Source: Providencia rustigianii DSM 4541 (GTDB taxonomy: Bacteria > Pseudomonadota > Gammaproteobacteria > Enterobacterales > Enterobacteriaceae). Taken from it: DNA of 64,000 bases. Below, piece by piece: positions 2,878 through 63,824 of the stretch (position 1 is its first letter; every line of letters starts with the position of its first letter). The notes beneath the pieces are model-generated. The model was not told the DNA's origin. It was given only the letters and a program-made list of their open reading frames with translations, and did no database searches. The stretch lies in assembly GCF_000156395.1 (NCBI RefSeq), contig NZ_GG703817.1, forward strand, positions 767,395-831,394. Reading direction: 5' to 3'. The translations under genes were made by a program, and so were the position numbers.

Positions 2878-3999
2878 TTATTTCAAAAATTCGCCGTTAA
2901 TAAAATAGGAAACCTGATGAGCTTCATCGGGGGTCGGTATTTCCAGTTTCCTCGACATTCTTTCCAGCACATTATCAGGTACTACATGTTTACGCTGGCG
3001 ATTTTGTTGCTGCCACTGTTTGCAAGGAACCTCGAGATAAATCAGATGGATTTTCGCTTGGTAACGAGCAAATAAGCTGATCAAGCTTTCTCGCAAAGAA
3101 CCATTCAGTGAAGTCGCATTCCAGATGAAATTTTGCTTATTTCGTAGGTACACTTTTGCCTGTTCTTTGGCTTGCTGCGCCACCCAACCTTGGGCATTAC
3201 GATCCGCTGGGTCAATGTTATGCTCACGGCGAATATTGTCGAGGCTCACCACTGCCGTCTGCGGGTAGAATCGTTGGATAAAGTGATCTTTCCCCATTCC
3301 CGGTAAACCACACAACATAATGACCTCGCTACCGTCCTCATCAAAAGGCTGGTAATCCGGTGTTCCACGCTGAGTATGGAAATAGTGAAAACGTCCTGCC
3401 AGTGAAGCAAACTGTTTCGGTTGGTTCCAACATTCATGTTCACGACAAAATAGCTCAAACAGCTCAATTCGTGTGAGTAAATCCGTTTGATCTTCACAAA
3501 CCCGCCCAAGTGCATCGGCGTTCGCCAGCATGCATAACAGAGACATATCCACCCGCAGCGAGGCGGCATATAACGCACGCTCAGGATCTGGCTTTTCCAT
3601 TAACCATAAGGGTAAACCGTGAAAACGGACTAATGCCGCAATTTGCTCGCGAATAGCAAACGGCGTGTCCACACTGCGAAATAGAATATTTCGGGCAGAA
3701 AGCTCCCCTTTTCTCGCGTGTCCGGGAGAGATAATTCGCCCCTCTTCTTCACGCGTGGTGCTGCGCTTTTCCACGTCATGAAGTAGTGCCGCAGTCCACA
3801 CAATCTGTTGTTGCTGCTCAGGTAGCCGCTGGTATTCCGGCAAGCCTTCTAATGCCGCCAGTACCATTTGGGTATGAATAGCCACATTGCCCTCAGCGTG
3901 ATGCCGAGAATCTTGTGGTACAGCGGCCATATCCCGTACAAATTCAAATTGCTTTTCCAACTGTGACCATTCGCGATTTTGCGTTAGTTGCCAATTCAT
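2878..3999 (-). CDS. HD-Pnk type RNA/DNA end-healing enzyme (HD phosphoesterase + polynucleotide 5'-kinase)
   Basis: This is a 373-residue fusion. The N-terminal half (about 30-200) is an HD-superfamily phosphohydrolase: HH at 33-34, H42, the HD pair H74-D75, H94 and H127 look like metal ligands. The C-terminal half (about 225-373) is a P-loop kinase with Walker A GLPGMGKD at 231-238 and a catalytic Asp candidate at D254 in SLDN. This architecture matches the described HD-Pnk enzymes (Runella slithyformis), which remove 2',3'-cyclic phosphate or 3'-phosphate with the HD domain and phosphorylate 5'-OH ends. Its ATG overlaps the stop of the upstream RNA ligase gene (ATGA), implying coupled translation and a shared healing-sealing job. 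The substrate RNA is unknown. Confidence 0.85.
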   Translation of the reverse strand: MNWQLTQNREWSQLEKQFEFVRDMAAVPQDSRHHAEGNVAIHTQMVLAALEGLPEYQRLPEQQQQIVWTAALLHDVEKRSTTREEEGRIISPGHARKGELSARNILFRSVDTPFAIREQIAALVRFHGLPLWLMEKPDPERALYAASLRVDMSLLCMLANADALGRVCEDQTDLLTRIELFELFCREHECWNQPKQFASLAGRFHYFHTQRGTPDYQPFDEDGSEVIMLCGLPGMGKDHFIQRFYPQTAVVSLDNIRREHNIDPADRNAQGWVAQQAKEQAKVYLRNKQNFIWNATSLNGSLRESLISLFARYQAKIHLIYLEVPCKQWQQQNRQRKHVVPDNVLERMSRKLEIPTPDEAHQVSYFINGEFLK

Positions 4000-4709
4000 C
4001 GGGCACCCCCTTGTCGTTCAAATGCCAGTAGCGCTCGCTGCCAATTTCGCTTCCAGTGAATGTCCGTTTTGACATGATTTTTACGCACATATTTGAAAAT
4101 ATGCTGCATAAAGTCATCCACATGAAAGCCTTGGCTATCTCGGGTCACGATGCCTTCCATACTGCACGCTTTTCCCGTATGGGTGTCCCGTGCAATGAAG
4201 TGGCTATCGGCAGATGCCGCGGTCATTAACGCGTCACGGTATTGTTGCGGTGATAGGGATTTATCAATCTCAAGATTAAGCTGTGGCACAGTGGGGAAAT
4301 CAAACAGAGAAGCATAAAATTTCACCTCTTCCCAGCTTAGCCAATAGTCTCCTTGCCTCACCGCAAACACATAAAAGTAATCTTCGATATGTTGATATTC
4401 AATCGAATGAACCGCATATAAATTTTCACCGAACAGTTCAATATCCCCAAGATCGTCTTTAATTAATTGCCAACGTTGACGAATCTGTTGAGTCCATGCG
4501 GATTGTGTTGGCGCGCCATGGGAACGAGCAAACACGCCGTAGCGGCTCAAGCAGTTATTTTCACCATCGAGTTTTTCGGTATGAACTAATTGTTCAATAT
4601 TTTGGATGTGCGCCCACCAATCGCTATTAATACGATCGTCGCTGGTGGTGCCCGGGGAGAACGGATAGTGATACGTTCTACCATACTTCCTTGATTGCAT
4701 ATTCATCAT
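3996..4709 (-). CDS. RNA ligase (ATP-dependent, nucleotidyltransferase fold)
   Basis: This protein (237 aa from the ATG at 4709) has the covalent nucleotidyltransferase motifs. Motif I KLDG has the lysine nucleophile K46; motif IV is MEGIV; motif V contains FKYVRKNH near the C-terminus. That places it with T4 Rnl-type RNA ligases that seal 3'-OH/5'-phosphate ends. The reading frame also permits a GTG start at 4736, but the ATG at 4709 has AGAGA a few bases upstream, so it is preferred. It is the first gene of a two-gene operon with the HD-Pnk enzyme, which would supply exactly the ends it needs. It is not an RtcB-type ligase. Confidence 0.85.
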   Translation of the reverse strand: MMNMQSRKYGRTYHYPFSPGTTSDDRINSDWWAHIQNIEQLVHTEKLDGENNCLSRYGVFARSHGAPTQSAWTQQIRQRWQLIKDDLGDIELFGENLYAVHSIEYQHIEDYFYVFAVRQGDYWLSWEEVKFYASLFDFPTVPQLNLEIDKSLSPQQYRDALMTAASADSHFIARDTHTGKACSMEGIVTRDSQGFHVDDFMQHIFKYVRKNHVKTDIHWKRNWQRALLAFERQGGAR

Positions 4710-4738
4710 GCTTTCTCTACAGAAATAACAAAACACAA

Positions 4739-4758
4739 CAAATCTTGAGCAAGATTTG
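4739..4758. promoter_or_regulatory. Perfect 9-bp-arm palindrome upstream of the RNA-repair operon
   Basis: CAAATCTTG (4739-4747), two bases, then CAAGATTTG (4750-4758) form an exact inverted repeat about 30 bp before the RNA ligase ATG. It could be an operator or a leader hairpin. No regulator gene is adjacent. Confidence 0.45.
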
Positions 4759-5008
4759 CCTCTGTGAAAATTGAGAAATCAAGAGTTGGTATTACATATC
4801 TGTTCCGCGAGACGGCCTCATTAAAAAGTGTTTTTACTATAAAAACAATAAGAAATAATCAGTACGCGGGGATTCTAAACTAACAGTCAAGACAAAAGCC
4901 ACCGATATAGTCCTAATTATGTAAAAAAACATGTTCCACTTAGCAACTATTTTTATTCTCGATATTTCATTCAGTTTTAAAATTTTTAATTGTTTTTGAT
5001 TTTGACTT

Positions 5009-5292
5009 TTCAACTTCCAAACATTGGCTCTATGGATTTTGTGCTGTAGTAAGGCGACAAGTGTAGCTAATCCCTAGGAGCATACATAAGTATGTGACTA
5101 GGGTTAGCAAGCGCAGTTAACGCAGCTACAGTGCAAAAGACGACGAGCAGTTCAACTTCCACACATTGGCTCTATGGATTTTGTGCTGTAGTAAGGCGAC
5201 AAGTGCTGCTAATCCCTAGGAGCATACATAAGTATGTGACTAGGGTTAGTAAGCGCAGTTAACGCAGCTACAGTGCAAAAGACGACGAGCAG
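5009..5292. repeat. Tandem duplication of a 142-bp unit, each holding an ERIC element
   Basis: Two near-identical 142-bp units, 5009-5150 and 5151-5292, each contain a 17-bp flank (TTCAACTTCCA..CATT) followed by a 125-bp ERIC element (5026-5150 and 5168-5292). The ERIC core CCTAGGAGCATACATAAG and TATGTGACTAGGG is clear. Because the left flank is duplicated too, this is a local tandem duplication of flank plus ERIC and not two independent insertions. The second copy ends just before the stop codon of the citrate transporter gene. Confidence 0.9.
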
Positions 5293-5293
5293 A

Positions 5294-6610
5294 TCAATAA
5301 AGACCTAAAAGCCCCCCAATACCTAGAGTAAAAAAGCTAAATAGCCAAATCCACCCGAACGAATAACGCAAATGCCGTCCCATATCAATGCCCGCTAAGC
5401 CCATCGCCAACCATGCAGCCGGAGAAAATGGACTCACAAACGTCCCTGCGTTATTACCAATCGCCATCGCGTAGACCACTGCTGATGGGTCAATCCCTGC
5501 TGTTCCCGCAATTTGTTGAATAATTGGTAACAGTGCAAAATAATACGCATCAGTACTGGTGAAGATATCCATCGGTACACCGAGGATACCCACAAATATA
5601 TGAATTTTTGATACCCATTCTGTTGGCAGGATCGCAGTTAAATCAACAGCAATAGATTTCAACATTCCGCCGTCAGACAAAATACCAAGAAATGCTCCAG
5701 CAGCTAAAATAATCGCCACCATTCCTAATGCCTGTGGGGCATGCTGAGAAATCACTTTCATTTGGTCTTTCGGATTTGGGAAGTTAATCAGTAACGCTAA
5801 GGATAATGCAATCATAAAGACATAAGGGGCGGACAGCAGACCAAATGCCAAGCAAATAATGGAGATTAAGATCAATCCGCCATTAATCCACGGCTTCTTA
5901 GGTTTGTTAATCGTTTCAACGACATCGTCCATTTGTTCTTCTGCCGTCAGCAGTGAATCCATTTGGTATGGAGTCGTACCTTGTAATTCAGCAGCAGCAA
6001 TACGGCGTTTTTCACGCATTCCCATAATGACAGCAAACACCACTGCGCCGACCATACCAATTAATTGAACAGGAATGAGTCCTTGCCATAGTGTAGACGC
6101 ATCGATACCCGTCACCGCAGAAGCTCGACCTAAAGGGCCACCCCATGGAACCATATTCATAATCCCCATACTGGTACACATTAATAACAGCATCAGGTAG
6201 GGACTCATTCCCAATTGGCGGTATAACGGTAACAATGCAGGAATGATGATTAAGAAAGTCGCCGCGCCAGAGCCATCTAAGTGGACAACCCCCGCAATCA
6301 GGGTGGTCATAATGCAGACCACAATCACGTTACCGCGTGTCATTTTGACCATTGCGCGGATCAGTGGATCAAAAATATGTAAATCTTTCATCAAGCTAAA
6401 GAATAAAATAGCGAACAAAAACATGGCCGCAACTTTAGAGACTTTATGAATCCCGCTTTCAAAGAACACAGAAATTTCAGCGATTGAATACCCTGCTAGC
6501 AAGGCTCCAATAAAAGGGATACAGGACATTGCAATAATCGGGCTTGCTTTCCCCATCATCAATAAAGTGACTATCGATACGATGATTAAAATACCAATAA
6601 TTGTTAACAC
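5294..6610 (-). CDS. CitMHS-family citrate:cation symporter
   Basis: This 438-residue polytopic inner-membrane protein matches the CitM/CitH citrate-metal transporter family in length and in conserved blocks. These include HLDGSGAATFLIIIP near residue 110, VPWGGPLGRA near 155, and the C-terminal NNAGTFVSPFSPAAWLA. Family members import citrate complexed with divalent metals in exchange for or with protons. It is monocistronic, divergent from the OYE-type oxidoreductase gene, with a long AT-rich region between. No adjacent two-component system is seen. Confidence 0.85.
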   Translation of the reverse strand: MLTIIGILIIVSIVTLLMMGKASPIIAMSCIPFIGALLAGYSIAEISVFFESGIHKVSKVAAMFLFAILFFSLMKDLHIFDPLIRAMVKMTRGNVIVVCIMTTLIAGVVHLDGSGAATFLIIIPALLPLYRQLGMSPYLMLLLMCTSMGIMNMVPWGGPLGRASAVTGIDASTLWQGLIPVQLIGMVGAVVFAVIMGMREKRRIAAAELQGTTPYQMDSLLTAEEQMDDVVETINKPKKPWINGGLILISIICLAFGLLSAPYVFMIALSLALLINFPNPKDQMKVISQHAPQALGMVAIILAAGAFLGILSDGGMLKSIAVDLTAILPTEWVSKIHIFVGILGVPMDIFTSTDAYYFALLPIIQQIAGTAGIDPSAVVYAMAIGNNAGTFVSPFSPAAWLAMGLAGIDMGRHLRYSFGWIWLFSFFTLGIGGLLGLY

Positions 6611-50058: not shown

Positions 50059-50364
50059 ATGCACGTAATCTCAAGGGAACCCTTTGTCTATGCATCGGAA
50101 AGAAATCCTAAGCATGCCAAAGCATTATTAGATGTTTATAAAACACTAAAACAAGGATCGTACTCATCACCTGATGAGCTAAAAAATATTTTCCCAAGCT
50201 TAGATAGAATGAAGTACCGCGAAAAGTGGTGGGTTATTGATGTCGGTGGTAATGCTTTAAGGATTTTATTTTTTGCTGATTTTAAAAAAAGTAAAATTTT
50301 CATAAAACATATATCTACACACGCTGAATATAATAAGCTAATGAATTATTATCGGAGAACATAA
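50059..50364 (+). CDS. higB: HigB-type mRNA interferase toxin
   Basis: This 101-residue RelE-fold toxin cleaves mRNA at ribosomes. Matches the E. coli HigB (YgjN) pattern: FPSLDRMKYREKWWVIDVGGNALRILF. It precedes its antitoxin by 3 bp, the toxin-first order of higBA. Confidence 0.88.
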   Translation: MHVISREPFVYASERNPKHAKALLDVYKTLKQGSYSSPDELKNIFPSLDRMKYREKWWVIDVGGNALRILFFADFKKSKIFIKHISTHAEYNKLMNYYRRT

Positions 50365-50367
50365 AAT

Positions 50368-50784
50368 ATGATTTTTAGTGAAGCCATTCAAACTGCTAAT
50401 CATTTAATTCATCTCATTCCTATTCTCGGCAAAAATCACTCTCGCCGCGACTATGAAGATGCCATTAAATTAGTCGAGTATCTGGTGGAATATGATCCTG
50501 ATAATCCGCTGGTCGAAATTTTATGTGAAAAAATTGATCACTATGAAGACAATGCCCCCGAATTTGCAGATTTTAATCGCAAATTAAAGCAGTGTGATGA
50601 CGCTGTTGCGGTGTTACGTACATTGATGGATCAGTACAATCTAAATACCACTGATTTTGCTAATGAAATAGGCTCTCGCTCTTACGTTAGCCGCATTTTA
50701 AACGGTGAACGCAACTTATCTCTTGAGCATATGAAAAAGCTGGCAGAGCGATTTAAACTCCCCGTGACGATATTTATTAAATAA
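50368..50784 (+). CDS. higA: HigA-type antitoxin
   Basis: This 138-residue XRE-type antitoxin has a C-terminal helix-turn-helix (VSRILNGERNLSLEHMKKLAERFKLP). N-terminal acidic PENPL-like DNPLVEILCEKI region as in E. coli HigA (YgjM). It should bind and neutralise HigB and repress the operon. Confidence 0.88.
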   Translation: MIFSEAIQTANHLIHLIPILGKNHSRRDYEDAIKLVEYLVEYDPDNPLVEILCEKIDHYEDNAPEFADFNRKLKQCDDAVAVLRTLMDQYNLNTTDFANEIGSRSYVSRILNGERNLSLEHMKKLAERFKLPVTIFIK

Positions 50785-63124: not shown

Positions 63125-63445
63125 TTAAATAATCAGAGTCTTTTGCTCGATTAAATTTAGTAATCTCAACGCTGCGCCGTTGGGTTTGATTTCATCACGT
63201 TCCCACTTAGACACACTTTCTTTTGTCATATTTAATATAAGCGCTAAAGATGATTGAGAAATATTATTCTCTTCGCGAATACGTTTAATATCCTCACCCG
63301 TCATTGGCTTAAGAGCACTAAATTTCTCCTTTAACTCTCTCGCCTTAATTCTTGCTTCAATACGTCGAGAGGCAATATCATCAGTCACTCCAATCTTTTC
63401 CAATCCTTGAGCAAATTCAAGTAACTCTTTCATCGTATTAGACAT
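63125..63445 (-). CDS. XRE-family antitoxin (HigA/NadS-like)
   Basis: This 106-residue protein has a C-terminal helix-turn-helix (about 48-100: MTGEDIKRIREENNISQSSLALIL, TKESVSKWERDEIKP). It overlaps the preceding toxin gene by 8 bp. It should repress the pair. Confidence 0.82.
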   Translation of the reverse strand: MSNTMKELLEFAQGLEKIGVTDDIASRRIEARIKARELKEKFSALKPMTGEDIKRIREENNISQSSLALILNMTKESVSKWERDEIKPNGAALRLLNLIEQKTLII

Positions 63446-63824
63446 TTTCTACCTCAATTAAATAGCCAGTTTTAAGCATATGTGCAATTTTCATTGGATC
63501 AGAATTTAGTAATATTCGAGCAATATCTTTATAGGATTCAAGATCATCATCCTCAATTTCTTTTCTTCCTTTTGAGGCTAATCGTGATTTGGACCAACCA
63601 TCAGCAAAAAATAGATGAGAACCTTGTTTATAAAAAATAATCGTTCGTATTCCAGCTCTTTTCCCAAAGCCTTGAATAGCCAGACGCTTTTTAATCACAC
63701 CGCCACCCAAATCCGCTTCATAACAGCCGGATAAAACCTGCTTAGCCGCTAACAATACGTCAATTTCATCCAGTTCTAGCTTTTTTAGCTTACTCTTAAA
63801 AATCTTAGTTTTATAAATTGCCAT
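63438..63824 (-). CDS. RelE/HigB-type toxin (PF06296-like)
   Basis: This 128-residue toxin starts AIYKTKIFKSKLKKLELDE and has a GGVIKKRLAIQGFGKRAGIRTIIFYK core. Toxin is upstream, the XRE antitoxin downstream. Not closely related to the higBA pair at 50.1 kb. Confidence 0.82.
   Translation of the reverse strand: MAIYKTKIFKSKLKKLELDEIDVLLAAKQVLSGCYEADLGGGVIKKRLAIQGFGKRAGIRTIIFYKQGSHLFFADGWSKSRLASKGRKEIEDDDLESYKDIARILLNSDPMKIAHMLKTGYLIEVENV

Follow-up and report, generated by a model that had tools for sequence, protein, structure and literature searches.

A ligase gene and an HD-Pnk gene of Providencia rustigianii as a candidate RNA-repair pair, with RtcB2-PrfH as a possible companion

What kind of broken nucleic acid would a bacterium mend with a ligase and an end-healing enzyme encoded back to back? 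Such a pair lies in the 64,000-nucleotide stretch of Providencia rustigianii DSM 4541 analysed here (contig NZ_GG703817.1, positions 767,395 to 831,394; hereafter the window), where a gene for an ATP-dependent RNA ligase family protein is followed, with no gene between, by a gene for HD-Pnk, a phosphohydrolase and polynucleotide kinase in one chain (Table 1). The original prediction had described a translationally coupled RNA-repair cassette; both open reading frames and their ATGA overlap are borne out, and the strand, which it did not give, is minus. We lean towards the view that the pair is an RNA end-healing and sealing kit, with RNAs of the translation machinery as likely targets and the RtcB2-PrfH system as a companion. 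What the analysis shows directly is the identity of both genes, the conservation of their residues, purifying selection, their linkage, a gene row shared with rtcB and prfH in other bacteria, and statistical co-occurrence with prfH.

The ligase translation contains TEKLDGENN (K45), FGENLY, EGIVTRD (E184) and FKYVRK (K205) and matches the RNA_ligase profile PF09414 at 96.1 bits against a cut-off of 27, so that the KxDG, III, EGIV and K-x-V-R motifs and the above-threshold profile that define an ATP-dependent RNA ligase are all present. K45, E184 and K205 are invariant in 108 of 108 aligned ligases, as is the K205-x-V-R208 block; these residue alignments, like those used below for HD-Pnk, include repeat rows per species and their rows are partly dependent (the broken ligase of locus L074, with an internal stop, was excluded). 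The protein is a member of this family, and RNA sealing is predicted from its sequence. A fold search was needed to find structural relatives, since sequence searches of the PDB returned only chance-like matches and no ligase. NCBIfam gave the ligase no match, and PHROGs matched it to two phage ligase families, one named RNA ligase and the other without a named function. Its closest folds are RNA ligases, those of Naegleria (Rnl5) and T4 Rnl2, with an Aquifex entry named putative DNA ligase (3qwu) standing amid RNA ligases at Foldseek rank 12. Rnl5 and T4 Rnl2 each have a second domain, whereas the window chain fits the catalytic domain only: PF09414 spans residues 39-207, the fold alignments cover 1-218, and a chain of 236 residues is too short for an Rnl5 or Rnl2 proper. 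In the predicted model residues 1-24 have pLDDT below 50, which leaves an invariant N-terminal block unplaced. The gene starts at an ATG; an alternative upstream GTG would make it reach 4736.

The HD part of HD-Pnk carries H42, H74-D75, H94, H127 and D162 and the kinase part GLPGMGKD (K237) and D254-x-x-R257, that is, an H..HD..H..H..D domain and a C-terminal P-loop kinase in a single chain, the architecture of this family. The catalytic roles of these residues, and of those named in the ligase, are assigned from what is known of the families. Nine residues of the HD and kinase parts are invariant in 105 of 105 aligned HD-Pnks. AAA_33 matches the kinase part well above its cut-off (E 6.8e-23), and the HD profile falls just below its own (E 5e-4; 20.8 bits against a Pfam cut-off of 22). 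NCBIfam gave HD-Pnk sub-cut-off matches only, PHROGs matched it to a phage family without a named function, and PADLOC returned for the pair a weak Cas3 match to the HD part alone (0.022). The family assignments first made for both proteins hold, and 5' kinase and 2',3'-phosphoesterase activities are predicted for the window's HD-Pnk from its relatives. Among ten Providencia sequences, the window's included, dN/dS was taken from pairs with dS below 3 (pairs at 3 or above were discarded). It comes to 0.060 in the ligase, with 38 of 45 pairs usable, to 0.053 in HD-Pnk, with just 9 of 45, and to 0.067 in neighbouring prpF, with 40 of 45; the first two values indicate that ligase and HD-Pnk are real genes.

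Table 1. Features of the window, in positions of the whole stretch
Feature	Position	Strand	Remarks
ATP-dependent RNA ligase family protein	3996..4706	-	236 aa, nucleotidyltransferase domain only; PF09414 E 3.4e-27, motifs, fold
HD-Pnk (N-terminal HD phosphohydrolase domain, C-terminal P-loop polynucleotide kinase domain)	2878..3999	-	373 aa; profiles, residues
ATGA, overlap of ligase stop and HD-Pnk start	3996..3999	-	read from the sequence
Ligase leader and promoter region	4707..4930	-	conserved block at about 4771-4821, LexA-like match within
HigB toxin gene, then HTH antitoxin-like gene	50059-50784 (HigB 50059-50361)		
RelE-family (PF06296) toxin gene with overlapping HTH partner	63125-63824 (RelE 63438-63824)	-	

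The two genes travel together. A genome scan with the ligase gave 296 confirmed stretches, the best 80 of which were analysed (the 80 loci); several of these end near the pair (L087, for example, 117 nt upstream), so that counts of neighbours are lower bounds. In 79 of the 80 HD-Pnk follows the ligase, on its strand, and in 77 it does so directly, two Dysgonomonas loci having one extra open reading frame between. The exact 4-nt overlap recurs in 17 of 20 loci sampled from the genus (L023-L042) and, more widely, in 28 of the 80 loci, with starts set by the longest frame; the tight overlap is genus-typical and not universal. The linkage also holds when approached from HD-Pnk: 17 of 295 genomes of the order have a full HD-Pnk, and in 17 of 17 its contig has a PF09414 match at a distance of 86-326 nt (p 2e-22). 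HD-Pnk matched 24 of the 295, and only the 17 with both domains were counted, single-domain or partial matches in G023, G074, G162, G182, G185, G215 and G265 being excluded. The window ligase used as query finds the nearby partner in six of the 17 but not in the other 11; six of those 11, when opened (L140-L145), have a longer ligase of 278-308 aa. HD-Pnk thus retains a ligase partner despite a change of ligase subfamily. Unlinked genes or a non-conserved ligase lysine would have spoken against the cassette as first described, and the genes are linked and K45 invariant.

Nor is the pair rare, as had been supposed. Of the 24 genomes in the genus sample, 22 have the ligase and 23 have HD-Pnk; neither gene is present in G306, G309 retains just a fragment of HD-Pnk, and in G313 the reading frames of both genes are broken. 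The 80 loci are spread over Proteus, Xenorhabdus, Serratia, Pragia, Budvicia, Phytobacter, Kosakonia, Bacteroides and Dysgonomonas, among others. Escherichia coli carries it in 981 of 5426 complete genomes (about 18%), always chromosomally and in single copy, so that carrier and non-carrier strains are both available in a model organism. In three E. coli records that we opened the pair stands alone with emrB and luxS on either side, and neighbours resembling emrAB are seen again in Kosakonia, Phytobacter and Superficieibacter. A ligase relative is also present in 48 plasmid records, of which 18 are from Deinococcus. The 60-66% identity to Bacteroidota raised the possibility of frequent transfer between phyla, which we rejected on the trees of both proteins: in each, the 51 Enterobacterales rows group together as a single clade (support 0.97 and 0.87), and one old acquisition fits better. 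The direction is weak, however, since the trees, which omit L074 and L106, are rooted on a single phage sequence. Ligase and HD-Pnk trees correlate strongly (Mantel r 0.93, 80 rows, 0 of 999 permutations), probably for the most part through shared descent.

An ATP-dependent ligase gene adjoining an HD-Pnk gene has precedents. The HD-Pnk of Runella slithyformis reportedly heals both RNA and DNA ends, and its family is said to lie often beside an ATP-dependent ligase; by that description it resembles the window's protein in fusing an HD phosphoesterase to a 5' kinase. The phosphatase of a further RNA-repair kinase, Pnkp1, is T4-Pnkp-like and not of the HD kind. In Deinococcus radiodurans the DRB0100-DRB0099-DRB0098 operon, studied as DNA repair (PMC1997131; the operon is also in PMC11833690), likewise places a short ligase (DRB0100, 210 aa) ahead of an HD-Pnk, at 32% and 29% identity to the window's ligase and HD-Pnk, but with a TIGR02452/PARG-family gene between them that the window lacks. 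The window's pair therefore belongs to a known kind, by the Deinococcus precedent and that reported for Runella, and the statement that such a cassette is not well described is not supported, a relative having been studied in 2007 (PMC1997131). Two other RNA-repair systems resemble it in part. RtcB2-PrfH (PMC9223846) is a sporadically spread operon answering a ribotoxin but differs in its GTP-dependent ligation of 3'-phosphate ends and its release factor; Pnkp1-Rnl-Hen1 (PMC4411300) repairs ribotoxin-cut tRNA with a separate kinase/phosphatase and ATP ligase but has Hen1 as a component (no Hen1 search was made for the window pair). As to what systems of the window's kind repair, a DNA role has been proposed in Deinococcus, while the ligase fold and gene neighbours described here point to RNA.

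The neighbours in question are rtcB and prfH, and their gene rows and shared presence with the pair, which hint at what it repairs, are the addition of this analysis. RtcB is encoded within 8 kb upstream of the ligase in 18 of the 80 loci and PrfH in 11, always between RtcB and the ligase. The row rtcB-prfH-ligase is seen in each of the five Serratia loci and in six from Bacteroidales, with HD-Pnk next in 10 of the 11 (the exception is L106); strand and spacing suggest that these rows are operons. In one, the Dysgonomonas locus L125, a KptA-like gene sits between prfH and the ligase (its relative at L103 has a Pfam E of 2.7e-51). As a separate observation, L125 (5236-11810) carries on one strand rtcB, prfH, kptA, ligase, HD-Pnk and later DUF4291, a large RNA-repair island. 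The window's own genome has its only detected RtcB gene (377 aa) beside prfH (205 aa) on contig C34, so that the RtcB2-PrfH operon is absent from the window locus, which lies on C35.

The association extends to genomes in which the genes lie apart. Among the 295, where TIGR03072 matches every genome through ordinary release factors and only matches above the cut-off were counted, PrfH is present in 29: in 14 of the 17 with HD-Pnk against 15 of the 278 others (p 1.4e-13), or, per genus, 7 of 9 against 9 of 91 (p 2e-5). PrfH is partial with an internal stop in G177 and also carries a stop in G017; leaving out G000 and G177 does not abolish the association (12 of 15, p 1e-11). In three of the 14 genomes (G006, G012 and G037) prfH and the pair are no more than about 1.4 kb apart. 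Within the genus sample PrfH exceeds the cut-off in 21 of 24. The literature searched, including what was available of PMC6514570, PMC1586002, PMC3710099 and PMC9223846, held no description of this union or co-occurrence, and we do not claim that it is unpublished.

How might the two systems divide the work? The chemistry proposed here for the pair is drawn from characterised relatives, and we infer its substrate and its division of labour with RtcB2. At one end of the cut RNA the HD domain would take off a 2',3'-cyclic, 2'- or 3'-phosphate, and at the other the kinase domain would phosphorylate the 5'-OH; ligase K45 would then take AMP from ATP and pass it to the 5'-phosphate, and the ends would be joined. 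The likely substrates would be translation-machinery RNAs cut by ribotoxins, and the PrfH link suggests that ribosomal RNA may be the target as much as tRNA. RtcB2 would join 3'-phosphate (or cyclic) ends directly to 5'-OH ends, leaving to the pair those that RtcB could not use, for example where a cyclic phosphate has been opened to a 2'-phosphate or removed. Quite possibly, though we would put this below even chances, the pair is the second chemistry of RtcB2-PrfH ribosome rescue: PrfH would free a ribosome whose decoding centre or tRNA had been cut, and closure of the break would be ensured by two ligases that require opposite kinds of ends. Since the ligase of the pair is missing the second domain usual in such enzymes, substrate binding would then come from the kinase partner or the ribosome itself.

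Several observations weigh against reading the pair as an RNA-repair companion of RtcB2-PrfH. The linkage has exceptions: the ligase occurs without HD-Pnk at L106, G026 has a second, solitary HD-Pnk (L146, 6012-7175) with no ligase match beside it, and in the named phage collection a ligase relative is present in 26 records, whereas just one has an HD-Pnk over 80% of its length. Genomes within a genus are not independent, and inside genus g56 the p value for PrfH with HD-Pnk is just 0.02. prfH lies elsewhere than the pair in 11 of the 14 genomes that have both, and in the genus sample the two are uncoupled, G306 and G309 having prfH without the whole pair and G296 and G312 the pair without a PrfH over the cut-off. 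The relative DRB0100 sealed no DNA, and RNA sealing is not shown for it either in the available part of PMC1997131. Finally, two observations point to DNA: a 2018 report, seen by its title, has the Deinococcus HD-Pnk abetting resistance to ionizing radiation and mitomycin C, and upstream of the window's ligase, inside a block largely conserved in 10 aligned Providencia sequences, lies a LexA-like site with one mismatch. Even so, the reading of healing plus sealing by the two gene products is supported.

One alternative overlaps with this reading. The pair might be a kit for cleaved tRNA, made by the anticodon nucleases of phage defence or by colicins, that works independently of RtcB2-PrfH, both systems accumulating in the same genomes as answers to RNA attack. 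The absence of RtcB from the available stretch in 62 of the 80 loci, together with the scattered positions of prfH, would suit it. So would the phages. T4 carries Pnkp and Rnl1, and a 462-kb uncultured phage, LR756500, has a ligase adjoining HD-Pnk; the N-terminal extension of that ligase looks HNH-like by eye, Pfam having scored the ligase part only. IMG/VR yielded 4 ligase loci and 12 HD-Pnk loci, 8 of the latter with a ligase within 4 kb upstream, at least two of the 8 repeating another. A survey (PMC7824862) describes jumbo phages as carrying RNA-repair ligases, some HNH-fused, against host RNase attack. In E. coli, RtcB2-PrfH gives protection against colicin E3, a 16S rRNA nuclease, and none against the tRNA-cutting colicins E5 and D (PMC9223846), which leaves that role vacant. 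On the other side stand the repeated rows in Serratia and Bacteroidales with PrfH, a ribosome-acting release factor, and its closeness to the pair in G006, G012 and G037. We regard this alternative as possible but on balance doubtful. The published RtcB2-PrfH colicin tests, which used E. coli ATCC 25922, reveal little about the pair because the ligase there is annotated as frameshifted (L139, 3001-3698; the HD-Pnk gene is not so annotated). As an observation apart, phage contig L138 (3974-7123) has a ligase, an HNH protein, two more genes and then HD-Pnk, and one of the intervening genes is small-nucleotidyltransferase-like by eye with no Pfam match.

A serious rival, if an unlikely one, is that the main task of the pair is to heal and seal dirty-ended DNA breaks, the role put forward for DRB0100-DRB0098. 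According to PMC1997131 the Deinococcus operon is strongly upregulated on irradiation and DRB0098 phosphorylates a DNA 5'-OH end, its phosphatase activity being left open, and the 2018 title and the LexA-like site fall on the same side. Against it, the closest folds of the ligase are RNA ligases (3qwu at rank 12 excepted), DRB0100 joined no DNA in that report, and the recurrent neighbours of the pair are RNA-repair genes. Measured against 10 mononucleotide shuffles, moreover, LexA-like sites across loci do not exceed chance (8 of 83, the window among them, against 6.5), and SOS control of the pair is not supported; nor is sigma-54 control (8 of 83 against 6.0).

It is improbable that the ligase is a non-sealing adenylyltransferase that caps RNA or protein with AMP while HD-Pnk acts alone. 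Such a role would agree with the lone nucleotidyltransferase domain, the unplaced invariant N-terminal block and the behaviour of DRB0100, which adenylylates (takes up AMP) and, in the available part of PMC1997131, joins no DNA either alone or with its operon partners. Yet in 17 of 17 genomes the end-healing enzyme keeps a ligase partner, from more than one ligase subfamily, and this argues for sealing of healed ends, as does the invariant K205-x-V-R208. For the same two reasons, the bare domain and the DRB0100 result (PMC1997131), the original prediction of a complete operon is unproven.

Still less credible is that the pair counters the HigB and RelE toxins of the window, as first suggested: both are indeed present, but each sits in its own two-gene module beside an HTH gene, about 45 kb (HigB) and 59 kb (RelE) from the pair, distances on which we rejected a link, nothing seen ties them to it, and the setting of the pair between a CitMHS transporter and prpF/citT is constant in nine of nine named Providencia loci.

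The remaining observations concern the sequence around the pair. An Rfam scan of the window gave 0 matches at the gathering score. In four other Providencia loci the gap between the CitMHS gene and the ligase was compared: L049, L051 and L055, but not L057, have an open reading frame there, of the VanW family in L049. The window has none in this gap (4740-5290), where a 142-bp unit is present in two head-to-tail copies that match at 96% (5009-5297, upstream of the ligase and extending to where the CitMHS gene ends).
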